Below are positions 8,109-26,840 of a stretch of 32,363 bases of DNA, piece after piece. Every line of letters begins with the position of its first letter. Position 1 is the stretch's first letter. A model generated the notes under the pieces. That model worked only from the letters and a program-made list of their open reading frames with translations, made no database searches and was not told the DNA's origin. Origin of the DNA: Gammaproteobacteria bacterium (GTDB lineage: Bacteria; Pseudomonadota; Gammaproteobacteria; Steroidobacterales; GCA-2729495); contig SMWD01000003.1 of the NCBI GenBank assembly GCA_004357495.1, forward strand, positions 1-32,363. The letters run 5' to 3'. A program made the translations under genes and the position numbers.

Positions 8109-9743
8109 TCAGATCGTGCCGCTGACGATCGGGTTGAACGCGGTCAGGCTTTGGCGCAGCGCTGCGTTGCCGAGTCCGTGATTCGGGAACAGGCCCGGGA
8201 AGCCGGAATCTTCGCCATGCAGGGCCATGTAATTCAGGATCAGTGTCTCGACGAGCAGGTTGACATTATTCGCGGCCGGGGTCGCGCCGGTGTCCACCGA
8301 ACCGTCTGTCCGGAAGTGGCCGATCTGCTGATGTCGCGCCTGCTCCTCGGGGGTCCCACCGATTAATTGCGCCCGCCCGCCCGGGTTGTACACCAGGAAG
8401 AACGAAGACGCGGTCGAGCTGTTATCGCTCGTCCACTCACCCTTGCCGCGGCCGTCTGCCGAATTGTCGATGACGCCGTTGCTCGACAGCGAACCGTCGC
8501 TGAAGACGTACATCATCAGCGGTACACCGTTGCCGTTGTTTGCACGTGCCGCGTACTCGAGACATGCACCCATACAGCGTCCGGCGCGAAAGTCTTTGAC
8601 CTCGCCCTCGGCACGGCGGCCACCGTGATAGTCATAGCCGCCCATCGTCACGCAGCCGGCGCCGGCGAAGCCGTTCATGACGAGTTTCATGACGGCGGCG
8701 GTCTTGCGGAACTCATTGTCGCCCTGAAACTCCACGTCAGTGAATATCCCCGCTGCACCGACGATATCCGGGTCGAGTTCGGGGTTCAGTGTCGACGGAT
8801 CGCCGAAGCGGTCGGCGATATCGGCGGATTTGACGTAGCCGCAGCGCACGAGTTGCTTGACCACCTCGTCGCGGGTCACCAACGGGTTATCCGGATCCGG
8901 GAACACCAGGCCGGTGCTGACCTGGTCCATCTTCATATCGCTGATCCGGTAGATCGCTTCCATGACGGCGACGGCATCGTCCTGACCGAGCAGTCCGACC
9001 AGTTGTCCCGTGTCGACCAGGCCGGTGACATCGCTCGGGCGGTCAACCTTGGTTGGCCGGTTCGCCGGGTCGATCATCATCGCCGGGGCCATCGAGTTAC
9101 CGCCCGATTCGGAGTTGCGCGAGCCGATCAGCGTCAGCAAGGACCCGTCCGCGCCCGCCCGATTGATTCCATACAGCGGGTTGTGCGGATTGTTGCCGGT
9201 GTCATTGTCAGAGCGGGCCGGGATGACCGCGCCGTTGACGCTGGCCGCCGTGCCCGGAGACATGCTGCCCATCATGCCACGCAGGAACGCGCTGTCGCGA
9301 TGGAATGCCAGGCCGAGCGTTTGGTCGATAAAGTCCAGGTTCGTATTCGGGTCGATGCTCTGCGGCGTCATGTCGCCGGGCAGACCGAGCTTGCTGTAGC
9401 CTTGCGTACTGAGCGGGTCGAGCTGGCCGCCCTGAGCACCGACCAGTACGTTCGAGCCGGACATGTTCGCGCCGCCCGCTAAATCGAAACACATGAATGG
9501 AATCTTGCCCGCGCCGAGCACGTTGATGCCGCACGGCGTGCGCAGCAGGTCCAGGTCGGATGACAATGCCGCGTAGGCGGCACGCGGATCCGCAAACAGG
9601 CTCATGACGCCCCCGCCGAGCACGCTCGCCGCGCCGGTCATGAAACCCTGGCCGATAAAATCGCGACGCGTGACCGGGCGCGGGTGGTTCGGGTGGCGTT
9701 GCGGTGCGAAATAGTGACGCGTGTGACGTCGTCTGCGTGGCAT
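8109..9743 (-). CDS. DUF1501-like Tat-exported protein
   Basis: Twin-arginine motif (VTRRDFIGQGFMTGAASVLGGGVMSLF), then FDLAGGANMSGSNVLVG... and ...TDVEFQGDNEFRKTAAVMKLVMNGFAGAGCVTMGGYDYHG, as in DUF1501-type proteins. Confidence 0.7.
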   Translation of the reverse strand: MPRRRRHTRHYFAPQRHPNHPRPVTRRDFIGQGFMTGAASVLGGGVMSLFADPRAAYAALSSDLDLLRTPCGINVLGAGKIPFMCFDLAGGANMSGSNVLVGAQGGQLDPLSTQGYSKLGLPGDMTPQSIDPNTNLDFIDQTLGLAFHRDSAFLRGMMGSMSPGTAASVNGAVIPARSDNDTGNNPHNPLYGINRAGADGSLLTLIGSRNSESGGNSMAPAMMIDPANRPTKVDRPSDVTGLVDTGQLVGLLGQDDAVAVMEAIYRISDMKMDQVSTGLVFPDPDNPLVTRDEVVKQLVRCGYVKSADIADRFGDPSTLNPELDPDIVGAAGIFTDVEFQGDNEFRKTAAVMKLVMNGFAGAGCVTMGGYDYHGGRRAEGEVKDFRAGRCMGACLEYAARANNGNGVPLMMYVFSDGSLSSNGVIDNSADGRGKGEWTSDNSSTASSFFLVYNPGGRAQLIGGTPEEQARHQQIGHFRTDGSVDTGATPAANNVNLLVETLILNYMALHGEDSGFPGLFPNHGLGNAALRQSLTAFNPIVSGTI

Positions 9744-9760: not shown

Positions 9761-12268
9761 CTATTGCACGGTCGTCACGGCGCTGCCAAGTACGGCGGCG
9801 CAGACGGCCTTGGTGATGTTCCGGGTGCGCACGCTATCGCTGTTGTCACTGGCGATCAGTCGATCGATCAGGTTCAGGTGCGGGGTCGTGATGTACCCAA
9901 GCTCGTTACGTACGTCGGCGAAGGTCGGCTGCGAGCCGAGCCCGATGTTCATCGCATTATCGATCAGCGGCATCAGCATCAGGTCACGAGCCGCGAACGC
10001 GACGCTCGGCTGCGCGCCGAAATCGAAGCCGGGGAAATAGGCCGTACGCTTGCCTGCATCCTCGACCAGTACGTTGCAGTATTCGATCGCAAGCTGCGCG
10101 ATGCCGATCTCGTGTGCAGCCGAGAATGCGCCGATGTCCTCGATCGTCGGCAGCTGGGTCTTGACCAGGGTAAAGGTGCCGGACACTGCCGCATCGGTTT
10201 TCGAAATGCCGGTGATCACCGAGAATGACGCGTTGATCTCGTCGAAGGTCTTGATACCAATATCGGATGCGGGCGCACCGTCGATCGGGGTCGGCGCCAG
10301 CGGCGCGGGCTCGGTGACGAAATTCGTTGCGTTGCCGAGCACCTCGAAGGTCAGGAAGAACAGGTCAGAGTCGGTGCCGCGTTCCAGAGCGATGACCGTG
10401 CCGAGACCGGACAGCGGCTGGCCCTGGGGCGTATACGAAGCATCGGTGATTTGTGTGTTCAGATTCTGGTAGGCCTGGCCGACCGGTGATTCCGCGCCAT
10501 TGATACCCAGCCGCATGCCGGCGATCGGTATGTTTCCCGGGGTTGCGGCCGCGTCGAGACTGATGAATATCGGGGCGTCGAACAGGTAGCTGTAGCTGTC
10601 GAACTGGCTGACCTCGAACAGGATATACGCCTGCGGCATGCCGACGATGCTCTCCGGAAGATTGAACAGCAGGAAGAACTTCTCGCCGACGCCGACGGCG
10701 AAGTTTTGCAGAATCTGTTCCGGTGTCAGTACCCGGTTATGGATGGCAACCAGCCGGATCACGCCCATCCACTGGCGATCGCCGGAGACCTCGTTGCCGA
10801 GTACGAACGCAAATGTGTCGTCCCAGTCGGCGAGGGTGCCGCCGGGCACCGGGTCGAGATCATCGGTGAATACGCCGTTGACATACAGGCGCCGGCCGTT
10901 GACCGGGTCGTAGGTCGCAACGACATGCTGTAGCGTGGCCTGCAGGTCTTCGTCCGTGTCGGATGTCTGCATGAACGGCTCGCCGTTGCCGTCGGTCGTA
11001 CTGCTGCGATTATAGAAATCGTAGGCGTAAAGCGTCTGGCCGAGGTGGAAGTTTCGCGCCATCGTGCCTGCCGAGTAGCTGATGATTCGGGCTTCCTCCT
11101 GCGCGACATTACCGGGCACGACCCACGCTTCGATGGAATACTCTCCGGACGACTTGATCATGTCGTGCAGTTTCTTGCTGTTCGTAGTCGAACCCTGCAG
11201 CTTGCCGCTCAGTATTTCGACGCCCCAGCCGCCGACCCATCTGACGGTGTCGGGATCGGACAGGGTCAGGTTGATTGCCGGGTCGACGCCGCTGGTATCG
11301 AACGCGGTCAAACCGATGCCGGTCTTGAACTCCCACAAGGCAATCTGGTTCGCTTCGTAACGATTGCCGCCGCTGGCAATCGTGCCGTCAAACAGGTTCA
11401 GCGCTGCACTCAGGATCAGGTTTGGGTCGATCGGATCCGTCGTGGAGCCGGCCGCCAGTTGCTCGATCGTCGCCTGCATGGTGTCGGCATTCGCCGCACA
11501 GTCGCCCCAGCAGTTATGGAACTCGAAGCGCAGGCGCACGACGAGACGTGAACTTGCCGGATCGTCGAGATCGATCTTCGGCTTGATCGCAGCGTAGGCA
11601 ATGCCTGGATCCGCATCGGCGAAGTAGGGGTTCTGCTGCACTGCCGGATCCGCGCTGGAACTGTGGCAGGCCAGACAGTTACCCGTCGCAACGTCGGTGA
11701 CCAGGGCATGTACGGTCGCCTCGAACAGGCTGGTGTCCGCGGGAAAGGTTTTGCTCGCGCCGACCTGTCGCAGTACCGGTGCCTGCAGTTCGATCTGGCG
11801 GGCCGCTTCGCCCGTCGTGTTGCCGCCCCAGTTTTCGATCCAGCCGGTCATGATGTCGCCGCAAACGGCCGCTACGGCTTCCCAGCAGTGGTGGCCTCCG
11901 GCAACCTTGATAACCAGCCGGGAGTCGCTCGGCGAGCCGAGATCGACCAGGGACAGCGCCGCGTCATAGGCGAGGTTCACGTCATCAGTGCGTGCGAACA
12001 TCGGTGCCTGGCCACCGGTGTCGCTGTGGCAACCGCCGCAGCGATCCGGCCGCGCGATGTTATCCCACAGGTTAATCATGAAGGACTGGACATCGGCTGT
12101 GGCCGGTGGCGGCCCCGTGTAGTTCGTCGTCGTCGGCAGGTTCAGTTGCGGCAAGGATTCCGTGTCGGCGCCACCGCCGCAACCGGCGAGAAGCAGTGTG
12201 ATCAGCAGTGCGACGAGTCGGGCTGCTGCCATGGTTTTCGCCTGAGTGATCCTGATCATGGTCTGCAC
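9761..12268 (-). CDS. Di-heme c-type cytochrome / LamG (concanavalin-like) domain lipoprotein
   Basis: Lipobox-like LLLAGCGGG; CGGCH at 12026-12040 and CLACH at 11663-11677; LamG-like YSIEAWVVPGN...QHVVATYDPVNGRRLYVNGVFTDDLD...FVLGNEVSGDRQWMGVIRLVAIHNRVLTPEQI. Confidence 0.85.
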   Translation of the reverse strand: MQTMIRITQAKTMAAARLVALLITLLLAGCGGGADTESLPQLNLPTTTNYTGPPPATADVQSFMINLWDNIARPDRCGGCHSDTGGQAPMFARTDDVNLAYDAALSLVDLGSPSDSRLVIKVAGGHHCWEAVAAVCGDIMTGWIENWGGNTTGEAARQIELQAPVLRQVGASKTFPADTSLFEATVHALVTDVATGNCLACHSSSADPAVQQNPYFADADPGIAYAAIKPKIDLDDPASSRLVVRLRFEFHNCWGDCAANADTMQATIEQLAAGSTTDPIDPNLILSAALNLFDGTIASGGNRYEANQIALWEFKTGIGLTAFDTSGVDPAINLTLSDPDTVRWVGGWGVEILSGKLQGSTTNSKKLHDMIKSSGEYSIEAWVVPGNVAQEEARIISYSAGTMARNFHLGQTLYAYDFYNRSSTTDGNGEPFMQTSDTDEDLQATLQHVVATYDPVNGRRLYVNGVFTDDLDPVPGGTLADWDDTFAFVLGNEVSGDRQWMGVIRLVAIHNRVLTPEQILQNFAVGVGEKFFLLFNLPESIVGMPQAYILFEVSQFDSYSYLFDAPIFISLDAAATPGNIPIAGMRLGINGAESPVGQAYQNLNTQITDASYTPQGQPLSGLGTVIALERGTDSDLFFLTFEVLGNATNFVTEPAPLAPTPIDGAPASDIGIKTFDEINASFSVITGISKTDAAVSGTFTLVKTQLPTIEDIGAFSAAHEIGIAQLAIEYCNVLVEDAGKRTAYFPGFDFGAQPSVAFAARDLMLMPLIDNAMNIGLGSQPTFADVRNELGYITTPHLNLIDRLIASDNSDSVRTRNITKAVCAAVLGSAVTTVQ

Positions 12269-12269
12269 T

Positions 12270-13514
12270 TCAGGGACCCTTGCAGTAAACTGCTGCTTGG
12301 GCGAAGGCCAGCTTCATGTTGGCGCCGCCGCTCCTGAAAGCAGAGGTCATCGTGGCAACCTGGTCACGATCGGCCTGGTCGACTGGGTCGCGAAAACAGA
12401 TCGTCTTGAAAACTTTCCTGACCTGGCATTGTGCGAATGCATCACTGTTGGCAAGTTCGGCGCCCATCGAGGCCGCGCCGGCGCCACTGCCCGGCAGCGA
12501 TGAATCCCAACCGAGCAACTGGTTCTGCCCGGCACGCCAATAGTTGGTCCAGCTGTCGTCCGGCGTCTCGAAGCCCGGCCGGAAGTTGTCGGCATTGTTG
12601 AAGTACTTCGGCTGTACCTGGTCTGGTGTGTATACGATGCGCTGTTGCACTTCGTCATAGTCGTAATACGCGAACGCCTGGGTCATCGGGTCCATGCCGG
12701 TGTGGCAGCCGATGCAGTTATTCAGGAAGATGCGGCTGTCGCCGCCCGGGCTGCGCGACACATCCTGTCGAATCCGGTCCGGTGAGCGCGTGATGTCCTT
12801 GACCTGTTCCATGTCGTTACACAGGTGATTGAGCATCGTGAAACGAAACATCGCACGGTTGGTGCCGGCGATGAAGAATGCTTCGGCCGCTGCGCGGGTG
12901 GTAAAAATTCCGGCCACTGCCGCCTGGGGCAGATCGGTCACCTGCGTCTGCGGTACGCCGACCAGTGCCGTCATCAGGTTCGTGTCATTTGCTTCCAGCT
13001 GTGCGTAGTGATTGTTGTTCGTCATCGAGTACGGCGTGGCGCCATTCGGGTCGATGTACACGAGGTTCGCGGACAGCAAGGTATTGAAGGGCACATCGTC
13101 CCGGATCATGCCGATGACAGTTGCCGTGTAGTCATTCAGGGGTACGAATACGCTTTGGCTCTCATTCGTCCACGGCGCCGCGAAATTCTTGAGGGTGACG
13201 TTGTAGAAGCCCTTGTCATCCATCGCCAGATACGCGGCGTCGATCCCGGTTCTGCCGCCGACCCCATTGAGGTCGTTGGTCATGTCCAGCAGCATCTGGT
13301 CGCTCGGCGGCACGCCGGCCAGCCGATCGTGCATTCGTCTGGCCTGCTCCAGTGCGCCCGCCTGGGCAGGCGAGGACATGCTGCCTGACAGCAGAAAAGC
13401 GATCGACACCGAAGCGATCCATCCGGTTCGCGTGCGTACCCCGGCAGCCGTACGCCGCATGCGCATACCAGCACTCATCCCAATTATCGCCCCACAACCC
13501 AGACACAAGCGCAT
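12270..13514 (-). CDS. Secreted c-type heme protein (DUF1588-like CxxCH region)
   Basis: CIGCHTGMDPMTQAFAYYDYDE at 12712-12726 region; signal-peptide-like WIASVSIAFLLSGSMSSPAQA suggests an internal start near 13460-13478. Confidence 0.72.
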   Translation of the reverse strand: MRLCLGCGAIIGMSAGMRMRRTAAGVRTRTGWIASVSIAFLLSGSMSSPAQAGALEQARRMHDRLAGVPPSDQMLLDMTNDLNGVGGRTGIDAAYLAMDDKGFYNVTLKNFAAPWTNESQSVFVPLNDYTATVIGMIRDDVPFNTLLSANLVYIDPNGATPYSMTNNNHYAQLEANDTNLMTALVGVPQTQVTDLPQAAVAGIFTTRAAAEAFFIAGTNRAMFRFTMLNHLCNDMEQVKDITRSPDRIRQDVSRSPGGDSRIFLNNCIGCHTGMDPMTQAFAYYDYDEVQQRIVYTPDQVQPKYFNNADNFRPGFETPDDSWTNYWRAGQNQLLGWDSSLPGSGAGAASMGAELANSDAFAQCQVRKVFKTICFRDPVDQADRDQVATMTSAFRSGGANMKLAFAQAAVYCKGP

Positions 13515-13677: not shown

Positions 13678-16347
13678 ATGATAAACGGGTTGTTGGAAAG
13701 CCGTTCGAGCGCGTGGCGTTCGTCTGCACTGCTGATAATTATCGTGTGTGGCATCACTGCCTGCGGTAGCGGCGGTGGTGTGGATCTGGCCGGGGGCCAG
13801 GCGGCCGATCCGGTCGTGCTCGATGTCCCGATCGCCTATGTCAAGCGGCCGTTGCCCCTGGATGACCAGGGGAATGTCGAGCCGACCGATGCGCGCGAGC
13901 TGATCACGTTCGAGATCGGCGCTGATCTTTATGTTCGCGAGCGCGCGTCGCCGAGTGCCGCGGAGCGGAACATCACCGAGGGCATTACCGCCGGCCTGGG
14001 TGACGTGCGCGACCTCGAGGTCTCATACGACGGGTCCCGCGTGATCTTCGCGATGCGGGCGCAGTTCATCGAAAACGCCGATGAGGAAGATCAGCCGAAG
14101 TGGAACATCTGGGAGTATGACCTGGAGTTCGATGTGCTGACCCGGATCATGACGTCGGATATCACGGCCGAGGCCGGCCACGACGTGGCACCGTACTACC
14201 TGCCGGACGGGCGCATTGTTTTTTCTTCGACACGCCAGCGTCAGTCGAATGCAATCCTGCTGGACGAGGGCAAACCCCAGTTTTCCGCGCTTGACGAGAA
14301 TCGCGGCGAGTTCGCCTTCGTGCTGCACGTCATGAATGCCGATGGCAGCGATATCCACCAGGTGTCCTACAACCAGAGTCATGATCTGGACCCTGCCGTG
14401 CTCAGCGACGGGCGCATCGTGTTCACGCGCTGGGACAACATGGGCGGGCGCAACGCGATGCACCTATACACCATGAATCCGGACGGCACCGAACTGCAGT
14501 TGCTGTACGGTAAAAACAGCCACGCCACCGGCACGAACGGGGCGACAATTCAGTTTCTGCAGCCGCGCGAGATGAGCGACGGCCGCATGATGACGATTGT
14601 TCAACCGTTCCAGGTCGCCAGTCGCGGTGCCGATATCCGGATCATCGAGACGGCCGATTACCTCGAGAATGTCCAGGCCAACGCGGCCAACGCCGGCGTG
14701 CTGACCGGTCCGGCCCAGTCGTTCGCGACCATCAACGACGTGCGCACCGACGGCAGCGTGTCGCCGGGCGGCGTGTTCGGCTCGGCGTACCCGCTGTGGG
14801 ACGGCACCGAGCGGATGTTTGTCAGCTGGAGCCAGTGCCGGCTCGTCGACGCGGCAGAACTCGCCGCCGCGGTGCTGGATCCGGCACTGCTGCCGTTGCG
14901 TATTTTTCCGTGTACCGACGCGGACCTCGCCGACCCGGCCTTGGTCGAGGCAGACCCGCTGTTTGGCATCTGGATCTACGATCGGGCGAGCGATACCCAG
15001 TTGCCGGTCCTGCAGCCGGAAGAGGGCATTATTTATGCGGACGTGGTTGCCGCCCAGCAGCGTACCTTGCCGCCGGTGATTCACGATCAGGCAACCACCG
15101 GGGCGCTCGACCCGGCCCACGTCGATGCGGGTGTGGGCTTTATCAATATTCGCAGCATCTACGATCGCGATGGCGTGGATCAGGCGGCACCGGATATTCC
15201 GGCACTGGCCGATCCGGCGCAGACCACCGCGGACCAGCGCCCGGGGCGCTTCCTGCGGATCGTCAAAGCGGTGTCGATACCAGACGACGACGTGCGGGAT
15301 TTTGCCAATACGGCGTTCGGGCGCAGTGCCGGCCAAGGCATGCGCGAGATAATCGGTTACGTACCCGTCGAACCGGACGGATCGGTGTATGCCATGGTGC
15401 CCGCAAATATCCCGCTGGCCATCAGTGTGCTCAATGCGGCGGGCGAGCGCGTCACGCCGCGTCATCAGAGCTGGCTGCAGGTTCGCCCGGGCGAGACGCT
15501 CGAGTGTAACGGTTGTCATGAGAACAACACCGGGTTCTCGCACGGCCGGGCGGATGCGTTCGACAGCGCATACCCCGGCGCATTGGCCGACAGCCTGCCG
15601 TTTCCGAATACCGTATCGCTGTATTTCGCGGACTTCGGCGAGACGATGGCCGAGGCTCGCGCGCGTCTGAGCTGCGCGACGGACTGCGCCGAGATCATGC
15701 CGCGCGTCGATATCGTGTACGACGATGTCTGGACCGACGAGGTCGCGGCCGGTCGCGCCAGGGATGCGTCCGTTGCTTACCTGTACAACGATCTGACGAC
15801 GCCGGCGCCGGTGTCGGCGGCGTGTCAGGCCCAGTGGACACCGATCTGCAGAATCGTTATCCACTACGAGATGCATATTCACCCGCTGTGGGCCGAGCCG
15901 CGGCTCGCGCCGGACGGCATCACCGATGTGACCTGCACGGTGTGCCACAGCCCGGTCGATGCGATGGCCATGATCCGGGCGCCACTCGGGCAACTGGATC
16001 TGACGGATGGCCCGTCGGTCGAGGAGCCGGATCACCTGCGAGCCTATCGAGAGCTGCTGTTTCCGGACAACCAGCAATTTTTCGACCTCGCCACCGGCAC
16101 CCTGCAGGACGTCATGATCGAGATCGGCATCGATCCTGTGACCGGCGATCCGATTCTGCAGCCGGTCACCGTCGCCGCGTCGATGTCCGTCAACGGCGCG
16201 GTGTCGTCCGCGCCGTTCTTCAGTCGCTTCTCGGCAGGTGCATCGCATGCCGGCTATCTGAGCGGGGCCGAGCTGCGGCTGGTGGCCGAATGGCTCGATA
16301 TCGGTGGCCAGTACTTCAATAATCCGTTCGACGCGCCGATAAACTAG
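13678..16347 (+). CDS. HzsA-like protein: TolB/PD40-type beta-propeller plus two c-type heme sites, lipoprotein
   Basis: Lipobox-like GITACGSGG; propeller blades (LPDGRIVFSSTRQ, MNADGSDIHQVSYNQSHDLDPAVLSDGRIVFTRWDN, LYTMNPDGTELQLLYG); CNGCH (15505-15519) and CTVCH (15934-15948). Confidence 0.8.
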   Translation: MINGLLESRSSAWRSSALLIIIVCGITACGSGGGVDLAGGQAADPVVLDVPIAYVKRPLPLDDQGNVEPTDARELITFEIGADLYVRERASPSAAERNITEGITAGLGDVRDLEVSYDGSRVIFAMRAQFIENADEEDQPKWNIWEYDLEFDVLTRIMTSDITAEAGHDVAPYYLPDGRIVFSSTRQRQSNAILLDEGKPQFSALDENRGEFAFVLHVMNADGSDIHQVSYNQSHDLDPAVLSDGRIVFTRWDNMGGRNAMHLYTMNPDGTELQLLYGKNSHATGTNGATIQFLQPREMSDGRMMTIVQPFQVASRGADIRIIETADYLENVQANAANAGVLTGPAQSFATINDVRTDGSVSPGGVFGSAYPLWDGTERMFVSWSQCRLVDAAELAAAVLDPALLPLRIFPCTDADLADPALVEADPLFGIWIYDRASDTQLPVLQPEEGIIYADVVAAQQRTLPPVIHDQATTGALDPAHVDAGVGFINIRSIYDRDGVDQAAPDIPALADPAQTTADQRPGRFLRIVKAVSIPDDDVRDFANTAFGRSAGQGMREIIGYVPVEPDGSVYAMVPANIPLAISVLNAAGERVTPRHQSWLQVRPGETLECNGCHENNTGFSHGRADAFDSAYPGALADSLPFPNTVSLYFADFGETMAEARARLSCATDCAEIMPRVDIVYDDVWTDEVAAGRARDASVAYLYNDLTTPAPVSAACQAQWTPICRIVIHYEMHIHPLWAEPRLAPDGITDVTCTVCHSPVDAMAMIRAPLGQLDLTDGPSVEEPDHLRAYRELLFPDNQQFFDLATGTLQDVMIEIGIDPVTGDPILQPVTVAASMSVNGAVSSAPFFSRFSAGASHAGYLSGAELRLVAEWLDIGGQYFNNPFDAPIN

Positions 16348-16349
16348 CC

Positions 16350-17087
16350 ATGCAGTATCCCGCCGTCATCGTGCTTGCCTGTCTGTGCCTCGCCGCGCCG
16401 ACTTATGGCAAAGGTCGGCCATACGAGGTCGTGATCGCGGAACCCTATATCGAATTGCATACCGGCCCGGGCCGCGGTTACCCGATATTCAACCTCGCCG
16501 AGCGCGGCGAGAAGCTCGAGGTTCACACGCGCCGCACCGACTGGTTCAAGGTGCGTACCGAGCGGGGCATCGAGGGCTGGGTGTCGGCCGGGCAGCTGTC
16601 GCAGACCCTCGAGCCCGATGGCACGCCGACGGCGATTCGTGACCCGAGCCGCGAAGACTTCATCAAGCGTCGTCGCGAGGCAGGTTTCCAACTCGGCGAC
16701 CTGGACGGTGCCAATATTCTCACACTGTATGGCGCCTACTTGTTTACCGATAACCTGTCGCTCGAGATTTCCGCATCGGATATTACCGGCGATTTTTCGA
16801 GTGGCTGGATGCTCAGCGCCAGCCTGGTGCATCAGCCGTTCCCAGGCTGGTACGTGTCGCCGTTCTTTACGCTGGGTACCGGTGTGCTGCGCATCGAACC
16901 GAAGGCGACACTCGTACAGGCGGAGGATCGAACCGACCAGGAGGCGCATGTCGGCTTCGGGTTTCGCGCACATCTCGGTCGCCGGTTTCTGCTCCGGGCC
17001 GAATACAAGAGTTACGTCGTGTTTACGAAGAGAGACAGCAACGAGGAATTAGACGAATGGAAGGCGGGATTCGCATTTTTCTTTTAA
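16350..17087 (+). CDS. Bacterial SH3-domain protein fused to a C-terminal beta-barrel-like domain
   Basis: Signal peptide; SH3 motif YIELHTGPGRGYPIFNLAERGEKLEVHTRRTDWFKVRTERGIEGWV; alternating strands ending KAGFAFFF. Confidence 0.75.
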   Translation: MQYPAVIVLACLCLAAPTYGKGRPYEVVIAEPYIELHTGPGRGYPIFNLAERGEKLEVHTRRTDWFKVRTERGIEGWVSAGQLSQTLEPDGTPTAIRDPSREDFIKRRREAGFQLGDLDGANILTLYGAYLFTDNLSLEISASDITGDFSSGWMLSASLVHQPFPGWYVSPFFTLGTGVLRIEPKATLVQAEDRTDQEAHVGFGFRAHLGRRFLLRAEYKSYVVFTKRDSNEELDEWKAGFAFFF

Positions 17088-17728
17088 GGGTGACACTGGC
17101 CGCACTGGGTGTCATGTCCATTACCGGCTGCTTCGGCGGGCGCACGGTCATCGAGACTGCACCCGATGAGGGTGAGAGTGTCATTCAGCCGGAGGTTTCG
17201 CGCCGGGAAGCTGCGCCCGTGAAAATCGATGCCGACAATTTTGAGGTGGGCGCCTATTTCGGTCTGCTCAGCGTCGAGGACTTCGAGACGAATTCGACCT
17301 ACGGTGCGCGCCTGGCCTACCACATCAGCGAGGGCTTCTTCGTCGAGGGCACCTTCGGCCAAACCGATGTCGGCGAGACGAGTTTCGAGAAACTGAGCGG
17401 TGGCGCACCGCTTCTGACCGATGACCAGCGGACACTGACGTACTATGACTTGTCCATCGGCTACAACCTGTTGCCGGGCGAGGTATTTATCGGTCGCAAA
17501 CGAGCCTTTCCGAGTGCCTTGTACGTGGTGGTCGGCGCGGGCAACACCAATTTCGCCGATGATGATTTCTTCACGCTGGTGCTGGGCGCGGGCTATCGCA
17601 TGCTGCTGACCGACTGGCTGGCGCTGCGGGTTGACGTGCGTGACCGGTTGTTTGATTCGGACCTGCTCGGCGAGGACAAGACGACCCACAACTTCGAGTT
17701 CAATATTGGCCTGAGTGGTTTCTTCTGA
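17057..17728 (+). CDS. Outer membrane beta-barrel protein with lipobox-like signal
   Basis: VMSITGCFGG; YGARLAYHISEGFFVEGTFGQTDVG...YYDLSIGYNLLPGEVF...GAGYRMLLTDWLALRVDVRD...FNIGLSGFF (C-terminal Phe); overlaps preceding gene by 31 nt. Confidence 0.75.
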   Translation: MEGGIRIFLLRVTLAALGVMSITGCFGGRTVIETAPDEGESVIQPEVSRREAAPVKIDADNFEVGAYFGLLSVEDFETNSTYGARLAYHISEGFFVEGTFGQTDVGETSFEKLSGGAPLLTDDQRTLTYYDLSIGYNLLPGEVFIGRKRAFPSALYVVVGAGNTNFADDDFFTLVLGAGYRMLLTDWLALRVDVRDRLFDSDLLGEDKTTHNFEFNIGLSGFF

Positions 17729-18251
17729 GGATCGATTCATGATGTTACGCACAAAAGCTTGCCGGTTTTCACTGCCCGGTGCCGTCATCGCCTGCGTACT
17801 GCTTGCGCCGGCGTGGGCCGACGACGCTGAGCCGGCGCCGGATTTCACGCTGAATGACGCCCATGGCAATGCCGTCAGTCTCAGCGATCTGAAAGGCCAG
17901 GTGGTCATGATCAACTTCTGGGCGAGCTGGTGCGGCCCGTGCCGGCAGGAGATGCCGCTGCTCGAGCAGATTCATCGGAAGTACGCGCCACTCGGCTTCA
18001 CGCTGCTTGGCATCAACGTCGAGGAAAATTCCGCCGACGGGCAGGCATTCCTGAAACAGCGCCCGGTCAGCTTCCCGGTCTTGTATGACCCGGAGAATGG
18101 CATCAGCAAATTGTATGACGTCGTCGCCATGCCCAGCACGGTGCTCATTGATCGTCGGGGCAATGTGCGTTACCTGCATCACGGCTATAAGCCGGGATAC
18201 GAGACGGACTACATGGATCAGATTCGCGCCTTGTCGAGAGAGCGGGGATGA
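17715..18251 (+). CDS. TlpA/ResA-family thioredoxin-like protein
   Basis: Signal peptide; APDFTLNDAHGNAVSLSDLKGQVVMINFWASWCGPCRQEMPLLEQI; AMPSTVLIDRRGNV. Confidence 0.92.
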   Translation: MVSSEDRFMMLRTKACRFSLPGAVIACVLLAPAWADDAEPAPDFTLNDAHGNAVSLSDLKGQVVMINFWASWCGPCRQEMPLLEQIHRKYAPLGFTLLGINVEENSADGQAFLKQRPVSFPVLYDPENGISKLYDVVAMPSTVLIDRRGNVRYLHHGYKPGYETDYMDQIRALSRERG

Positions 18252-18472
18252 GTCTCAAGCCTGCACTGATGCTGCTCCTGTTCGCTGTGGCCGCGACCGG
18301 CTGCGCCGTCGAGCCGTGGGTCAAACCCTATGAGCGCGACCGCCTTGCCGATCCCATCATGTTGCTCGATCGGGATCCCGTGTCCGCCGCGTATATCAAC
18401 CACGTGCACGAAGCGCGCGAGGGTGCGCGTGGCGCGGCGGGCAGCGCCGGCGGCGGGTGTGGCTGTAACTAG
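18248..18472 (+). CDS. DUF4266-like small lipoprotein with GGGCGCN tail
   Basis: LLLFAVAATGCAVEPWVKPYERDRLADPIMLLDRDPVSAAYINHVHEAREGARGAAGSAGGGCGCN; sits between TlpA and DUF3570. Confidence 0.82.
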   Translation: MSLKPALMLLLFAVAATGCAVEPWVKPYERDRLADPIMLLDRDPVSAAYINHVHEAREGARGAAGSAGGGCGCN

Positions 18473-18476
18473 CCTG

Positions 18477-19655
18477 ATGAGCATGCCGGCACATCGATGG
18501 TGGTTGCTCGTCGCGCTGGTCGCAGGGTTCGCTGCGGCGCGCGCGGGCGTGTTGCCCGAGGACCGCGCCGATGTGCTGTATCACTACTACGACGGTGACA
18601 ACGTCCAGATCGATGGCCCGTCACTGCTGGTACGCAAGAACATTCGCGAAACCGTCTCGCTGTTCGCCAACTACTACGTCGACAGCATCAGCAGTGCGTC
18701 GATCGATGTCGTCACAACAGGTGCGAGCCGATACGAGGAAGAGCGGAAAGAATACAGCGTTGGTCTGGATTATCTGCACGACGATACGATCATGAGTATC
18801 GCGTTTACGGACAGCAACGAGAACGACTACAAGGCACAGTCGCTGAACATCAGCGTTTCGCAGGATATCTTCGGCGGCCTGACAACGGTGACGATGGGCT
18901 ACGGGCGAGGCTCGGATGACATCTTCCGCAACGGTCCCGACGGCCAGCCGGACGGGATTTTCCATGAGCAGGCCGACCGACGTAACTATCGGCTGAGCGT
19001 GACCCAGGTCATCACGCGCAACTGGTTGCTGGGCCTGTACTACGAAGCCATCACCGACGAGGGTTGGCTGAACAATCCATATCGCCAGACTCGCTTCCTC
19101 GACCCGGGCTCGTCCACCGGCTACTCGTTCCAGCCGGAGATCTATCCCGGTACGCGCTCGAGTAACGCGATCGCATTCAATATGCGCTATCACTTGCCGT
19201 ATCGTGCCGCCGTGCACGGCGGCTACCGGTTCTTCACGGATGATTGGGGCATCGACGCGCACAACTTCGATATCGGCTACACGCATCCGCTGCAGGAAGC
19301 CTGGATTCTGGACATCAGCTATCGCTTCTATACACAGAGCAAGGCCGATTTTTTTTCGGACCTGTTTCCATTTCAGGATTCGCAGAACTTTCTGGCGCGG
19401 GACAAGGAATTATCGACCTTCGTCAGTCACGCGCTTCGGTTCGGAGCCACCTACAACCTGCTCAGGGACGGCTGGAAGTTCCTTGAGAAGGCCAGCGTCA
19501 ACGTCCATTATGATCATATTATTTACGACTACGATGACTTCCACGACCTGCGGTTCAGGGACGAGAACGGCGCGCCGCTGTTTTCGCCCGGGCAAGAGCC
19601 ATTGTTCGATTACTCGGCCGACGTGATCCAGTTATATTTTTCAGTCTGGTTCTGA
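18477..19655 (+). CDS. DUF3570-like outer-membrane protein
   Basis: ORF open from 18330; ATG 18477 gives signal peptide; RADVLYHYYDGDNVQIDGPSLLVRKNIRETVSLFANYYVDSISSASIDVVTTGASRYEEERKEYSVGLDYLHDDTIMSI; C-terminal IQLYFSVWF. Confidence 0.83.
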   Translation: MSMPAHRWWLLVALVAGFAAARAGVLPEDRADVLYHYYDGDNVQIDGPSLLVRKNIRETVSLFANYYVDSISSASIDVVTTGASRYEEERKEYSVGLDYLHDDTIMSIAFTDSNENDYKAQSLNISVSQDIFGGLTTVTMGYGRGSDDIFRNGPDGQPDGIFHEQADRRNYRLSVTQVITRNWLLGLYYEAITDEGWLNNPYRQTRFLDPGSSTGYSFQPEIYPGTRSSNAIAFNMRYHLPYRAAVHGGYRFFTDDWGIDAHNFDIGYTHPLQEAWILDISYRFYTQSKADFFSDLFPFQDSQNFLARDKELSTFVSHALRFGATYNLLRDGWKFLEKASVNVHYDHIIYDYDDFHDLRFRDENGAPLFSPGQEPLFDYSADVIQLYFSVWF

Positions 19656-19770: not shown

Positions 19771-20775
19771 ATGCTCAGGTGCTCGATACCCGCACCGCGC
19801 CTGCTGGTGGGCTTGCTCATGCTGGGTGTTTTGCCGGCCGCCCACGGCGACTGGTTTTCCGATGCGCAGGATAAAATGGGCACGCGCGTCGAGATCGAGC
19901 TGTGGCACGACGATGCGGCCGAAGCCAGGCGCCTGATCGCCGCGGGCATGGCCGAGTTCGACCGGATCGAGAGCGCGATGAGCACGTATCGCGCTGATTC
20001 GGAAATTACGCGCATCAATGAGCAGGCGGCTGCCGGCCCGGTCGTCGTCGGTGATGAATTATTCGCTCTGATTGCGCGCGCGCTGGCGTTGTCCGCGACC
20101 ACGGAGGGTGCATTCGACATCACTTACGACAGCGTCGGCCAACTCTATGACTACCGTCTGAACCGGAGGCCGGACGAGCCGGAAATCAATGCGCACCTGT
20201 TGACGATCGACCACCGGTTTGTCGAGCTCGACGTTGCGGCATCGACGATACGTTTCGCGCGTGAGGGGGTGCGCATCAATCTCGGCGGAATCGCGAAGGG
20301 TTATGCCTGCGAGGCTGTGATCGCATTACTGAAAGAACGTGGTGTAACCCATGCGCTGGCGACGGCCGGCGGCGATACGCGCCTGCTCGGCGACCGCGGC
20401 AACGGGCCGTGGATCGTTGGCATCCGCGATCCGGACGACAAAGCCGGGCTGATCACGCGTCTGGCGCTCGCCAATGAGGCGGTGTCGACCTCCGGCGATT
20501 ACGAGCGCTTTTTCATCGAAGACGGGGTTCGCTATCACCACATTCTCGACCCGTCGACCGGCAAGTCGGCGGGAGAGCTGCGCAGTGTCACCATCGTCGG
20601 CCCCGATGCGACGATGACGGACGGGCTGTCGACCAGCGTGTTCGTGCTCGGTGCGCAGGCAGGCCTCGAGTTGATCGAGCGTCTGCCGGACTACGAGGCG
20701 ATCATCATCGATGCTTCCCGCCGCGTGCAGTTCTCGACCGGCCTCGCCGCACAGCAGGCGCGTCGCGCCGATTGA
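19771..20775 (+). CDS. apbE: FAD:protein FMN transferase (ApbE family), exported
   Basis: Signal peptide; MGTRVEIELW, ESAMSTYRADSEITRIN, INLGGIAKGYACEAV, ATAGGDTRLLG, VSTSGDYERFF, HILDPSTGKSA. Confidence 0.95.
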   Translation: MLRCSIPAPRLLVGLLMLGVLPAAHGDWFSDAQDKMGTRVEIELWHDDAAEARRLIAAGMAEFDRIESAMSTYRADSEITRINEQAAAGPVVVGDELFALIARALALSATTEGAFDITYDSVGQLYDYRLNRRPDEPEINAHLLTIDHRFVELDVAASTIRFAREGVRINLGGIAKGYACEAVIALLKERGVTHALATAGGDTRLLGDRGNGPWIVGIRDPDDKAGLITRLALANEAVSTSGDYERFFIEDGVRYHHILDPSTGKSAGELRSVTIVGPDATMTDGLSTSVFVLGAQAGLELIERLPDYEAIIIDASRRVQFSTGLAAQQARRAD

Positions 20776-21000: not shown

Positions 21001-21534
21001 TTGTCGCGAGTGTTAAATAGTTTTTGTCGGTCTGACCGGCTGCGCGTGGTCTGCTGCGCGCTGCTCTTGCTGGCACTGCCGTGCGCGGCCGCTGCGGCGA
21101 AGCTCGCTGTCAATGAGCCGGCGCCGGACTTTGCGCTGAAGAGTTCCACGGGCAAGAATTTGCGGCTCAGTGAGTATCGCGGTGATGTCGTACTGCTGAA
21201 CTTCTGGACGCAATCCTGCGGGCGTTGCCGAGAGCAACTCGATCGACTCGAATCACTCTTCCAGGCACATCGCAATACGGGCTTCATGGTCATCAGCGTC
21301 GCGGTGGTCGATCAGCCCCGTCATGCGCAGGAGATCGCCGACCGCCTTAATTTGAGTTTTCCGATCTGGTACGACGAACGGAAGGCGGCCGTACAACTGT
21401 ACGACCCGCGCACCATGCCGCTGACGGTGCTGATCGATGCGCACGGCCGGGTGCGGGAGATCCATACGGGCTACCGCCGCGGCGACGAGGCGACGTACGC
21501 CGAGCAACTGCTCGCGTTGCTGGCCGAAGAATAG
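21001..21534 (+). CDS. Second TlpA/ResA-like thioredoxin protein (CGRC)
   Basis: APDFALKSSTGKNLRLSEYRGDVVLLNFWTQSCGRCREQLDRLESLF; TTG start (in-frame GTG at 21010 is an alternative). Confidence 0.87.
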   Translation: MSRVLNSFCRSDRLRVVCCALLLLALPCAAAAAKLAVNEPAPDFALKSSTGKNLRLSEYRGDVVLLNFWTQSCGRCREQLDRLESLFQAHRNTGFMVISVAVVDQPRHAQEIADRLNLSFPIWYDERKAAVQLYDPRTMPLTVLIDAHGRVREIHTGYRRGDEATYAEQLLALLAEE

Positions 21535-21537
21535 AAG

Positions 21538-22083
21538 GTGACAGTCATGACCGAAGGTTCCCGAAATTTGTGCGCCATGGTGCTCGGCATCCTGATGTTC
21601 ACATTGCCGACGGCGGTGTTTGCTGTCGATGGAGCTTCGCGGAGCCTGGATGCCGAAGTACAGGCGCTGAAGGGTGCCGTGCTGGATCTGAATCGCGAGT
21701 TGTTCATGCTCGAGGAAGAGCTGCTGTACCCGGCGAACACGCAGGTTGCCGTGTTCCTGTCGCTGGACATCGGTGAGTTTTTTGCACTCGACTCCGTACA
21801 GCTCAAGGTAGACGGCAAGGAAGTCAGCAACTATCTCTACACCGAACGCGAGGTACAAGCACTGCATCGTGGTGGTGTGCAGCGCTTGTTCCTCGGCAAC
21901 CTGAAGACCGGTCCGCACGAGATCGTAGCCATCTTCACCGGCATCGGTCCGCACGGGCGCGATTATCGGCGGGGTGCGAAGCTCGACTTCGACAAGGGCA
22001 TCGGCGCGAAATTCGTCGAGCTGCAGATTTCCGACCGGGTCAGCAAGCAACAGCCCGAGTTCATGGTCTCGGAGTGGGAATAG
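21538..22083 (+). CDS. Uncharacterised secreted protein of the TPR/ExbBD operon
   Basis: Signal peptide, short coiled region (SLDAEVQALKGAVLDLNRELFMLEEELLYP), beta-rich remainder; 3 bp after upstream gene. Confidence 0.75.
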   Translation: MTVMTEGSRNLCAMVLGILMFTLPTAVFAVDGASRSLDAEVQALKGAVLDLNRELFMLEEELLYPANTQVAVFLSLDIGEFFALDSVQLKVDGKEVSNYLYTEREVQALHRGGVQRLFLGNLKTGPHEIVAIFTGIGPHGRDYRRGAKLDFDKGIGAKFVELQISDRVSKQQPEFMVSEWE

Positions 22084-22086
22084 GCA

Positions 22087-23970
22087 TTGCTGCGACTCCG
22101 TCGAAAATTCGTTCCGGGGTTGCTTCTGATCGCACTGACCCTGACCGGTGGCCACGCATATGCGTGGGGCAAGGCGAAAGATCAGGGAACGACGATCCGG
22201 GACCCGTATTACGGTGAGGTCTTGTTCCACTTCTATCAGCAGGATGACTTTACCGCGCTGACCCATCTGCTGGCTGCCCGTCAGGCCGGCCGCGTCACGC
22301 ACCACGCCGCCGATGCCGAGCTGCTGCTTGGCGGTTTGTATCTCGCCTACGGTCAGCATGCGGACGCCGCCGAAATTTTCACTCGCCTGTTGGCCGAGAG
22401 CGATGATTCGCTGGTACGCGATCGGGTCTGGTTGTATATCGGCAAGGCGCATTATCAGCGCGGCCGGTATCGCGAGGCCGATCACGCGTTTGCGAAAGTT
22501 GGCGACGATCTGCCGGTCTGGCTGGCTTCGGAACATCGCATGCTCAGTGCGCAGAGCCTGATGGCGCAGGGACGGTTCGGCAAGGCCGCTGCATTGCTCG
22601 GCAGCTGGGACGGCGCCGGGAGCTGGTTCGCGTATGCGAATTTCAATCTTGGCGTGGCCCTGGTGCGCACCGGCCAGATTAATGAAGGTGGGGCCCGGCT
22701 CGCCGCAGTCGGGCAGATCGACAGCGACGACCCTGCGCTCATTGCCTTGCGCGACAAGGCCAACCTCGCGCTGGGCTATGCCTACCTGCAGGCCGAACGG
22801 CCCGGGCAGGCCAAGGCGGTGTTGCAGCACGTGCGCCTGCAGGGGCCGTCCTCGAACAAAGCCCTGCTCGGCATCGGCTGGGCCGATGCGCTGCGTGCAG
22901 ATTATCGCGGTGCACTGACCCCATGGCTCGAACTTCAGCAGCGTGATCTGCTGGACAGCGCCGTGCAGGAATCGCTGCTCGCGGTGCCCTATGCATTTAC
23001 ACGTCTCGGCGCGAACGGTTCGGCCGCCGAGTATTACGTTGCCGCGATGGCAGATTTCGACAACGAACTTGCCGATCTCGACGCGGCTATCGCGCGGGCT
23101 CGTTCCGGCGAGCTGGTGCGCTCGCTGCTCGCGCATGACGAACAACAGCTCGGTCGCTGGCACTGGAATCTCGCCGTGTTGCCCGAGACCGACGATGCGC
23201 GTTACCTCTATCACCTGATCGCGAACCATCCGTTCCAGGACGGCTTGCGCAGCTATCGGGATCTCCTCGCGTTACGCGCGCATGTGGCCGAATGGCAGCA
23301 GAAGCTCGCGACCTATGAAGACATGGTGGCGACGCGCCGCCTGGCCTACGAGCAGCGCCTCCCAGCCGTCGCAGCGCGAATGGAACAAGTGAACGTGACC
23401 GGGCTGACGGCGCGCCGCGACGCACTCGCGTCGCGCCTGGCGCGCATCGAGGCGGAGCGCGATGTCGTGGGCCTGGCGCAGAATCGCGAGGCGCAGCTCT
23501 GGCGTGACGTGACGGCCCTTGAATCGCATCTTGCATTCAATCGTGAAGAGGGCGCCGGCGCGCGCAGCAAACAGCGGATTCTGAAGGGCACGCTGCTGTG
23601 GCGATTCGACACCGAATATCGCTATCGGCTCTGGCAGCAGAAGCGCGAGTTGGCCGAGCTCGATGGGGAACTGGAACGCGCCCGCAGCTACGAGGCGCGC
23701 GTGCTGGAGGCACGCGTACAGATGCCGCTGCGACTGTCAGAGTATGCGCACCGAATCGCGATGCTCGCGCCACGGCTCGATTCGATGCAGACGCGCATCA
23801 CGCTGGCGCTCGGAGAGCAGGAAGACCAGCTTGCGGTGGTGGTTGCCGGCGAGCTCGAGGCGCAGAAGTCGCGCCTCGCCAGCTACCGGGTACAGGCGCG
23901 GTTCGCGCTGGCGACGATCTACGACCAGGCGACCGTCGTGTCCAATCAGGATGTCGGGGGTGACCCGTGA
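22087..23970 (+). CDS. TPR / coiled-coil periplasmic protein
   Basis: TTG start, signal peptide; TPR-like LLLGGLYLAYGQHADAAEIFTRLLAE, YIGKAHYQRGRYREADHAFAKV; coiled-coil C-terminal half. Confidence 0.8.
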   Translation: MLRLRRKFVPGLLLIALTLTGGHAYAWGKAKDQGTTIRDPYYGEVLFHFYQQDDFTALTHLLAARQAGRVTHHAADAELLLGGLYLAYGQHADAAEIFTRLLAESDDSLVRDRVWLYIGKAHYQRGRYREADHAFAKVGDDLPVWLASEHRMLSAQSLMAQGRFGKAAALLGSWDGAGSWFAYANFNLGVALVRTGQINEGGARLAAVGQIDSDDPALIALRDKANLALGYAYLQAERPGQAKAVLQHVRLQGPSSNKALLGIGWADALRADYRGALTPWLELQQRDLLDSAVQESLLAVPYAFTRLGANGSAAEYYVAAMADFDNELADLDAAIARARSGELVRSLLAHDEQQLGRWHWNLAVLPETDDARYLYHLIANHPFQDGLRSYRDLLALRAHVAEWQQKLATYEDMVATRRLAYEQRLPAVAARMEQVNVTGLTARRDALASRLARIEAERDVVGLAQNREAQLWRDVTALESHLAFNREEGAGARSKQRILKGTLLWRFDTEYRYRLWQQKRELAELDGELERARSYEARVLEARVQMPLRLSEYAHRIAMLAPRLDSMQTRITLALGEQEDQLAVVVAGELEAQKSRLASYRVQARFALATIYDQATVVSNQDVGGDP

Positions 23971-26840
23971 ACGTCGGTGTGCTGGCCACGGTGTACGGCA
24001 TCACCCTGATGGGTGGCCTGTGGCCGTTCGGCAGCGACAACCGGCCCGAAGATACGCAGGCGACGATCGGCAGCCTCGCCGCGCACGAGATCGACTTGCA
24101 GACGACGCCGGTCGTGCCGGGTGGCGCCGCGGCGGCGCGCGATCAATATCGCGAGTTCCTGGCGATCTCGAAGGATAACCCGGCTCTGCAGAGGGAAGCG
24201 ATGCGGCGTCTCGGCGATCTGAACCTCGCGGCGGGCGAGGATGAGGAGATCGAGCTCGGCCCCGAGGCCGCGGCCGGCTATTACGCCGAGGCCGTGCAGT
24301 TGTATACGGCGTTGCTCGCAGCGAATCCCGATCATCCCGACACCGACAAGATTTTGTATCAACTGGCGCGTGCGTACGAGACGATCGGCGCGGCGGACAA
24401 GGCGCTGGACATCCTCGATCGACTGGTGGCCGGCTATGCCGACAGCCGGTTTTTCGACGAGGCGCAGTTTCGGCGCGGCGAGATTCTGTTCGTCCGCAAG
24501 GATTTCCCGGCGTCCGCGGTGGCCTATGCCGCCGTGGTTGCCAGCGGCGCCGGTTCGACTTATTACCAGCAGTCGCTATACAAGCACGGCTGGGCGATGT
24601 TCAAGCGCAGCCGCTACGAGGCGAGTTTGAATTCGTTCATGACCTTGCTCGATGTCCGTCTTGGCGATGCTGCGGACGCCGGCGCGGCACTGCAGGCTAT
24701 GTCGCGCGCGGAGCGTGAGTTACTGGATGATGCGTTTCGGGTGCTGGCGATCTCGTTGGCTTATCTCGATGGCCACACCTCTTTGAATGGATTGCTTGAC
24801 CAATGGGGACTCGACCGGCGGGGAGCCGAGCTGCGTGGCCCGGATGAACGTGCACCGGCTGGGCGCGGTGACCCGGCTTACGTGGGTCTGCTGTACGCGG
24901 CGCTTGGCGACCTCTACCTCGACCAGGAACGCTATCAGGATGCCGCCAATACCTATGCCGCGTTCGTCGCACGCATGCCGACCGACGCGCGCGCGCCGGC
25001 AATGCAGGTGCGGGTTATCGAGGCCCTGACGCTGGCAAAATTTCCGAGCCTCGTGCTGGAGGTGAAGCGCGATTACATCGACCTGTATGGGTTGCACAGC
25101 GCATTCTGGGCCGGCCGGATGGTGGCGGACTGGAGCGGCGTCGTCGACCAGTTGAAGATGCATCTGACCGATCTGGCCAGCTATGATCACGCGCAAGCGC
25201 AGGCCGATGATAATGCGGCGGCCTATGCGCGTGCGGCCGACTGGTACCACCGGTTTATTGCCTATTTTCCGGATGATCCGGATTCTGCAGCGCGAAACTA
25301 TCTGCTCGCCGACATCTGGTTCGAGCTCGAGCGATATGGCCAGGCGAACACCGAGTACCTGCGCACGGCCTACGACTATGGCCCGCACGAGCAGGCGGCG
25401 GCGGCCGGCTTCGCGGCATTGCTGTCGGCCGAACACCATGCAGAGATGCTCGAGGGCGCGGCGCTGGTCGTATGGCATACGCAGTCGCTCGATAATGCGT
25501 TGCGTTTCGCACGCACGTTCCCCGGGCACGAGCAGGCAGCATCGGTGTTGACCCATGCCGCCGAGGAATTTTTCCGCAGCGGCGCGACCGAGCGCGCGAT
25601 CGAGGTGGCCGGCCGGGTCGTCACGTTACAGCCGCCGGCGTCAATGCAGCTCGAACGCACGGCATGGACCGTGATCGCGCACGCAAATTTCGACCTCGCC
25701 CGATTCGCACCGGCCGAGCGAGCGTATGAGCGTCTGTTGCTGATGCCGCTGGCCGCGGGCATCGAGCGTTCGGACTATGCGGAACGCGTTGCGGCCACTG
25801 TCTATCGTCAGGCCGAGCAGGCGCAGGCTGCGGGCGATGTCGATCTTGCCGTCGCCCAGTTTCTGCGGGTTGCGATGGTTCAGCCAACGTCACCATTCGT
25901 CGCGAACGCCCTGTACGACGCCGGCACACTGTTGCTTGCGAATCAGCGTTGGGGTGAAGCGGTCGATGTTCTTGAGCGGTTCCGTGCTGCTTTCCCGGCA
26001 CACCGGTTTAACGACGACGTCACGCAGAAACTGGCTGTCGCGTATCAGTCATCCGGCCAGCACGGCCGTGCCGCAGCCGAATACGAACGCGTCGCGAGCT
26101 TTGCCGACGCGGATCCGGAACTGCATCGCGAGGCCCTGTGGCAGGCGGCCGACCTGTACGAGCTACAGGGTTCGCGCGCGGATCAGCGTCGTGTCTATGC
26201 ACAGATCGTTGCCCGCTTCCCGACCCCGTTCGGTGAGTCGCTGGAGGCGCAATACAAGCTGGCCAATCTGGCCAGGGAGTCGAACGACTGGGCCGATCGG
26301 CAGCAATGGCTGGCCGCAATCGTCGCGGCTGACGCCGGGGCCGGCGCGGCCCGCAGTGCGCGCAGCCGGACGCTGGCAGCACAGGCCAGGCTCGAACTCG
26401 CAGCCCCGGCGCGTGACGCCTTCCGGACGGTCAAGCTGACGATTCCGCTGAAGAGCAGTCTGAAGCTTAAAAAAGCCCGCATGGAGGCTGCGCTGGCCGC
26501 CTACGGCCAGGCAGCCGACTACGGTATCGCCGCGGTGACGACCGCGGCGAGCTTCGAGATTGCCGATTTGTACTACGTGCTGAGCCAGGACCTGATGAAC
26601 TCGGAGCGGCCGAAGGAGTTGTCCGCGGACGAACTCGAGCAGTATGACATTCTGCTCGAGGAGCAGGCGTTCCCGTTCGAGGAGCAGGCGATCGATATTT
26701 TCAAATCCAACGCGTCGCGGGCCAGCGACGGTGTGTACGACGAATGGGTAAAGAGGAGTTTTGCGCGGCTGGCAGAGTTGCTGCCGTTCCGTTACGCGAA
26801 ATCCGAGAGGAGCGAGCGCTTTGTTGCGGCACTGGATTAA
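23967..26840 (+). CDS. Large TPR-repeat protein (957 aa)
   Basis: GTG start overlapping upstream stop by 4 nt; repeated TPR helices (ILYQLARAYETIGAADKALDILDRLVAGYADSRFFDEAQFRRGEILF, YVGLLYAALGDLYLDQERYQDAANTYAAFVARMP). Confidence 0.88.
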   Translation: MNVGVLATVYGITLMGGLWPFGSDNRPEDTQATIGSLAAHEIDLQTTPVVPGGAAAARDQYREFLAISKDNPALQREAMRRLGDLNLAAGEDEEIELGPEAAAGYYAEAVQLYTALLAANPDHPDTDKILYQLARAYETIGAADKALDILDRLVAGYADSRFFDEAQFRRGEILFVRKDFPASAVAYAAVVASGAGSTYYQQSLYKHGWAMFKRSRYEASLNSFMTLLDVRLGDAADAGAALQAMSRAERELLDDAFRVLAISLAYLDGHTSLNGLLDQWGLDRRGAELRGPDERAPAGRGDPAYVGLLYAALGDLYLDQERYQDAANTYAAFVARMPTDARAPAMQVRVIEALTLAKFPSLVLEVKRDYIDLYGLHSAFWAGRMVADWSGVVDQLKMHLTDLASYDHAQAQADDNAAAYARAADWYHRFIAYFPDDPDSAARNYLLADIWFELERYGQANTEYLRTAYDYGPHEQAAAAGFAALLSAEHHAEMLEGAALVVWHTQSLDNALRFARTFPGHEQAASVLTHAAEEFFRSGATERAIEVAGRVVTLQPPASMQLERTAWTVIAHANFDLARFAPAERAYERLLLMPLAAGIERSDYAERVAATVYRQAEQAQAAGDVDLAVAQFLRVAMVQPTSPFVANALYDAGTLLLANQRWGEAVDVLERFRAAFPAHRFNDDVTQKLAVAYQSSGQHGRAAAEYERVASFADADPELHREALWQAADLYELQGSRADQRRVYAQIVARFPTPFGESLEAQYKLANLARESNDWADRQQWLAAIVAADAGAGAARSARSRTLAAQARLELAAPARDAFRTVKLTIPLKSSLKLKKARMEAALAAYGQAADYGIAAVTTAASFEIADLYYVLSQDLMNSERPKELSADELEQYDILLEEQAFPFEEQAIDIFKSNASRASDGVYDEWVKRSFARLAELLPFRYAKSERSERFVAALD

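Follow-up and report, generated by a model that had tools for sequence, protein, structure and literature searches.

An HzsA-like diheme beta-propeller protein at a conserved gammaproteobacterial locus with flavinylation and gliding-type motor genes

The window (the whole stretch of 32,363 nucleotides analysed here) contains, at the position originally predicted, an ORF of 889 amino acids with an ATG start codon. The genes located 3' of this ORF lie on the same strand, overlapping or mostly separated by gaps of a few bases, whereas three genes on the other side are divergently oriented. The features of the locus are as follows:

8109..9743, minus strand: 544-aa exported protein with a twin-arginine-type signal (TRRDFI), without a Pfam family
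9761..12268, minus strand: LamG-domain diheme lipoprotein (Laminin_G_3, 6e-20; CxxCH at 77-81 and 198-202)
12270..13514, minus strand: mono-heme exported protein (414 aa), distant PSD2/DUF1585 relative
13678..16347, plus strand: HzsA-like diheme beta-propeller lipoprotein (lipobox Cys29; alpha-I CNGCH, 610-614; alpha-II CTVCH, 753-757; distal His857)
16350..17087, plus strand: SH3 and outer-membrane beta-barrel protein (Pfam SH3_3, 2.6e-9; OMP_b-brl, 3.9e-6)
17057..17728, plus strand: outer-membrane beta-barrel lipoprotein, TIGR04565 (OMP_myx_plus; 172 bits, cut-off 60)
17715..18251, plus strand: TlpA/ResA-like thioredoxin-fold protein with CGPC (AhpC-TSA, 4.3e-32)
18248..18472, plus strand: DUF4266 small lipoprotein with a C-terminal CxC (GCGCN; PF14086, 6.2e-22)
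18477..19655, plus strand: DUF3570, predicted ApbE flavinylation substrate (PF12094, 1.3e-39; flavinylation-type motif DSISSAS at 18681-18701; the reading frame opens at 18330, and its start is inferred at 18477)
19771..20775, plus strand: ApbE FAD:protein FMN transferase (PF02424, 2.7e-80)
21001..21534, plus strand: second TlpA-like protein (CGRC)
21538..22083, plus strand: 181-aa protein without an assigned family, always the first of the core machine
22087..23970, plus strand: TPR protein 1 (TPR1), core machine
23967..26840, plus strand: TPR protein 2 (TPR2), core machine
26761..27486, plus strand: TPR lipoprotein 3 (TPR3), GltE-like (GltE model, 1.7e-10, below cut-off; true start probably near 26870)
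27408..27869, plus strand: 153-aa core-machine protein (probable start at 27483)
27947..28600, plus strand: ExbB/TolQ/AglR-like proton channel subunit (MotA_ExbB, 2.8e-30)
28570..29109, plus strand: ExbD-like subunit 1 (9.4e-15)
29112..29648, plus strand: ExbD-like subunit 2 (1.8e-16)
29651..30592, plus strand: TonB-like protein with an AgmX/PglI C-terminal domain, GltG-like (NF033768, 65 bits, cut-off 40)

The original prediction described the 889-aa product as a PD40-type propeller with two CxxCH motifs, in the domain order of the alpha subunit of anammox hydrazine synthase (HzsA). Pfam searches bore this out, with a PD40 repeat (E=2.2e-7) and an HZS_alpha middle domain at residues 526-615 (E=2.4e-16; 60.5 bits, above the gathering score of 26.6). 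A profile of 38 orthologues matched a single enzyme in the PDB, HzsA of Kuenenia (5c2v_A, E=2.5e-25), the remaining matches being designed propellers. This alignment covers the propeller and both the alpha-I and alpha-II stretches, and the match is far beyond chance. The same structure was the top Foldseek match of the AlphaFold model (E=3e-21), ahead of TolB propellers, in a model with a mean pLDDT of 55.6 and poorly modelled heme domains (mostly 25-50), whose confidence is too low for reading off the alpha-I axial ligand. The hydrazine synthase alpha subunit is the only enzyme-level structural relative of this protein. Both the HZS_alpha match and the related fold, on which the original prediction had staked its case, were thus recovered. 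The lipobox cysteine, Cys29, is invariant (65/65 orthologues), and the protein is predicted from it to be lipid-anchored.

The heme ligands provide a sharper comparison with HzsA. In HzsA, heme alpha-I has Tyr591 as its proximal ligand and its CxxCH histidine (His587) coordinates zinc; heme alpha-II is bis-His, with His689 and distal His772 (PMC12607021, PMC12758564). His587 corresponds to His614 in the profile alignment of 38 orthologues, and the position of Tyr591 is therefore occupied by Thr618, as originally proposed; the HzsA stretch His587-Tyr-Gly-Ser590 stands at the matching alpha-I place in the alignment with 5c2v_A. No tyrosine was found four residues after the alpha-I histidine in any of the 65 orthologues. 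The column of the zinc ligand Cys303 is occupied by Asn280 and contained no cysteine in the 38 orthologues checked, this residue not being universal even among anammox proteins. These substitutions fit the suggestion of a different chemistry. The alpha-II ligands, by contrast with those of alpha-I, are retained, with His757 present in 65/65 orthologues and His857, the equivalent of His772, in 64/65. Two further conserved residues, the family-specific His596 preceding heme alpha-I (64/65) and Met657 (61/65), could be candidate alpha-I ligands, on the basis of their conservation.

We considered whether the protein might nonetheless work in a hydrazine synthase. As first noted, there is no beta- or gamma-like gene in the window, and none was found among the gene families tracked at orthologous loci. 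The NCBIfam profile for HzsA equivalogs (hydrazine_alpha) matched with an E-value of 3.5e-14, but its score of 51.7 bits falls far short of the cut-off of 800. No gene of the CCP/MauG family was detected in the window's own genome (G000, 74% complete) or in its sister G003 (98% complete), a search that bears on HzsC only if HzsC would match that family. A search with Multi-haem_cyto (PF13447), performed as a check for HDH/HAO, gave no match, but the control genomes were equally silent and the result was given no weight. A hydrazine synthase, or hidden anammox, was rejected on the Tyr591 and Cys303 positions, the absent partners and the NCBIfam score. The looser proposal of a divergent hydrazine synthase, or of another N-N or nitrogen-oxide enzyme acting on ammonium, hydroxylamine or NO, can draw on the heme alpha-II site and fold common to the two proteins, but the same missing ligands, subunit genes and CCP/MauG-type protein (the last in a near-complete sister genome as well) and a score so far below the equivalog cut-off make it most improbable. 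Nitrogen chemistry by this system is unlikely, and the protein is best classified, from its sequence, as a relative of HzsA that would not be a hydrazine synthase subunit. In metagenomes, a match to HZS_alpha must not, then, be counted as anammox potential.

HZS_alpha relatives outside anammox bacteria have already been published (PMC10732223, PMC12758564). Like the homologues of clades I-IV (PMC12758564), the protein studied here is distant, lies outside anammox and has no equivalent of Tyr591 or Cys303. However, the clade I-IV homologues adjoin beta-gamma homologues in Planctomycetota and Desulfobacterota, whereas our set has no beta-gamma gene and stands beside flavinylation and motor genes. 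It also retains the equivalent of His772, which clade I homologues lack. With Kuenenia HzsA (5c2v) it shares the beta-propeller, the HZS_alpha domain, the alpha-I then alpha-II order and the bis-His alpha-II site; it differs in its lipoprotein anchor, its family-specific His596, its missing alpha-I and zinc ligands and subunits, and its gene company.

This company, which the original prediction missed, tells more than the HzsA-like gene alone. We compared 52 loci containing the gene: that of the window, those of L031-L041 and 40 from relatives. The SH3-barrel gene lies directly 3' of the HzsA-like gene at nearly all loci and is followed by the second barrel in 50 of the 52, the exceptions being a contig-end fragment and one outlier. 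DUF3570 was present in 47/52 loci, most misses being due to contig ends, and the PSD2-like gene in 44/52. The hosts in which the gene set was seen are Woeseiaceae, Hahella, Aliikangiella, Cellvibrionaceae, Methylibium and one Verrucomicrobiaceae MAG. The Woeseiaceae sequences are placed among order-level relatives, and the organism from which the window comes is therefore probably a gammaproteobacterium related to Woeseiaceae. The HzsA-like sequences of L031 (MAG OFTM71, from the Oslofjord tunnel) and of sister genome G003 are identical. Among 99 genomes (98 relatives and the window's own genome), all 61 positive for HZS_alpha had TPR1, in several cases on another contig, and all 30 lacking TPR1 also lacked HZS_alpha (Fisher p ~2e-18, a value that ignores shared ancestry). 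In a sample of 276 genomes drawn across the class, HZS_alpha was found in 43, of which 38 had TPR1, and the two genes were no more than 30 kb apart in at least 28 genomes. Twenty of these class-level loci were read fully: the locus context was present for 15/15 orthologue-level HzsA-like proteins and for 0/5 distant HZS_alpha proteins. The HzsA-like gene has obligate company: TlpA, DUF4266, DUF3570, ApbE, two barrels and the ExbB/ExbD/AgmX-TonB/TPR genes, usually with the divergent heme trio.

Distant HZS_alpha proteins of 970-1450 aa, outside the locus context, were seen at L100-L104 and L076; those of L100-L104 have one or two CxxCH motifs, and these proteins probably belong to other subfamilies.

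The genes for ApbE, DUF3570, the DUF4266 CxC protein and the thioredoxin-like protein stand together at the locus. A cluster type of this composition, fed by DsbD, is known, and a published assay showed that ApbE flavinylates a Chlorobium DUF3570 protein (PMC8238504). The main text of that paper makes no mention of hydrazine synthase. The motif DxxS[S/G]AS was found in 61/62 DUF3570 orthologues, with the exact published form, [S/T]GA[S/T], in 17/62 and SSAS in most, and the CxC of DUF4266 was found in 62/62. The locus differs from the published clusters in that its thioredoxin is of the TlpA/AhpC-TSA type rather than PF13899, heme proteins and a proton-driven machine are added, and DsbD is not adjacent. 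DsbD was encoded elsewhere in all nine genomes tested, including the window's own, in which a single DsbD_TM gene lies on another contig.

The distal part of the locus resembles the core complex ancestral to the gliding machinery of Myxococcus. Luciano et al. (2011; PMC3169522) described, in several Gammaproteobacteria, a region of unknown function grouping gltC, D, E and G, aglR, Q and S and an extra gene. ExbB, a pair of ExbD subunits and a TonB-like protein with an AgmX/PglI domain are all encoded here, in one run with TPR proteins, and the 181-aa protein is a candidate for the extra gene. TPR1 and TPR2 matched no Glt model, and TPR3 matched that of GltE below the cut-off. The machine would correspond, by sequence comparison, to this ancestral core, with neither GltC nor GltD confirmed. 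It differs from the published core in being joined to an outer-membrane heme/flavin module; gliding-specific Group A genes were not identified.

The divergent trio consists of the mono-heme PSD2-like protein, the LamG diheme lipoprotein and the 544-aa exported protein. Its PSD2-like, LamG and heme features recall the planctomycete-specific cytochromes (PSCyt/PSD; PMC5615132), but the 414-aa member is under the Pfam cut-off, although PSD2 was matched in 14/14 of its orthologues (best 1.9e-5), and the 544-aa member matches no family. A resemblance of the 414-aa protein to aminotransferases (weak PDB matches, E=0.02) was judged due to chance. The 544-aa protein displays 55-85% identity across phyla without matching any Pfam family. 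Its structural model is weak, with no Foldseek match under E=0.48, and a fold-based function was not retained; the matches lean, without significance, to the alkaline-phosphatase superfamily. Kinship with DUF1501, a motif impression only, was likewise set aside.

The modules can be separated. Eight loci (L105, L106, L108, L109, L110, L112, L113 and L114) contain the core machine without the HzsA-like or redox genes; this stand-alone version consists of the 181-aa protein, TPRs, ExbB and ExbDs, in HzsA-negative Gammaproteobacteria. At L107 and L111, redox genes and the core machine are present and the HzsA-like gene is absent. The HzsA-like protein is therefore not essential to every version, and, since the core machine also occurs without it, the machine is generic and the HzsA-like protein a module on it. 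The two latter loci constitute natural losses or replacements, useful for studies of function. A second locus type, forming a single tree branch (SH-aLRT 95), has a three-heme HzsA-like protein, no divergent trio and, where loci were inspected, an additional lipoprotein of about 172 aa. Loci of this type are L042, L043, L044, L048, L050 and L085-L090; genome G130 has both types.

We favour, with modest confidence, the view that the HzsA-like protein is an HzsA-fold outer-membrane diheme cytochrome, the heme head of a flavin/heme redox system linked to the proton-motive force, and not a hydrazine synthase subunit. In such a system, thiol carriers (DsbD to TlpA to DUF4266) would, as we infer, exchange electrons with FMN on DUF3570. 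The flavoprotein and the barrels may span the outer membrane, across which the FMN would trade electrons, in either direction, with the hemes of the HzsA-like protein and of the LamG lipoprotein. Heme alpha-II would act as an electron relay to heme alpha-I, which, probably with normal His ligation, would meet the substrate. The ExbB/ExbD/TonB-like part would convert the proton gradient into mechanical work on the outer-membrane assembly, gating, moving or loading it.

The task of such an assembly may be sought in several directions, foremost among them the reduction of a metal and the oxidation of a polymer. Surface hemes and flavin might reduce a metal, most likely ferric iron, with the TonB-like motor moving the iron or its carrier inward. 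The ExbB/ExbD/TonB parts would suit this role, but neither an iron transporter nor a TonB-dependent receptor was identified, whether in the scanned genes of the window or among the families tracked at the loci, and the TPR-rich machine is closer to the gliding core than to a nutrient uptake system; we find this specific version doubtful. Redox attack on an extracellular polymer, such as a polysaccharide, bound by LamG and PSD2-type cytochromes and imported as products by the motor, is unlikely in our estimation. It would account for the LamG domain and PSD2-like heme protein of the trio, and planctomycete-type cytochromes are often found with carbohydrate-binding LamG domains, and near sulfatases in Verrucomicrobia (PMC5615132). 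Nevertheless, the scan of the window genes revealed neither glycoside hydrolases nor sulfatases nor receptors of the SusC/D type, and the three-heme second locus type lacks the LamG trio entirely. The HzsA-like protein might instead be a structural or adhesive component at the surface of a gliding-related motility or envelope-tethering machine, its hemes serving only for folding or sensing; this would be in keeping with a machine matching the core ancestral to Myxococcus gliding (PMC3169522). Conservation extends to the hemes, ApbE, TlpA, the flavin motif and the CxC, however, which suggests redox work, and we consider a purely structural or adhesive role decidedly improbable.

The preferred reading, a heme head on a redox system, can be taken further, as a tentative proposal: a new class of trans-outer-membrane flavin/heme redox machine linked to the proton-motive force, with an HzsA-fold surface head, in which the motor later used for gliding might have served, or might still serve, redox cargo in Gammaproteobacteria. 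Each part has been published before, whether the non-anammox HZS_alpha relatives, the gliding core or the cluster for flavinylation; no description of their combination was found in the open-licence literature searched. Three orphans, each published without a known role (non-anammox HzsA relatives, DUF3570 flavinylation and the core from which the gliding motor arose), meet at a single locus. Their co-occurrence is near-perfect, and their joint function can therefore be tested in culturable hosts, such as Hahella and Aliikangiella.

Several genes flank the island. A Wzi capsule assembly protein (1234-2913, plus strand) and a histidine kinase paired with a response regulator (4076-6132) adjoin it and are kept only in the nearest relative. 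Just 3' of the motor genes, 30857-31594 (plus strand) encodes a secreted protein whose tail resembles PEP-CTERM (IPIPAAAWLFGSALGLLVWTRRRRSA). Beside the divergent trio, 6412-7767 (minus strand) encodes a carnosine-methyltransferase-like protein (CARME, just below the cut-off), found at the same place in eight other loci.
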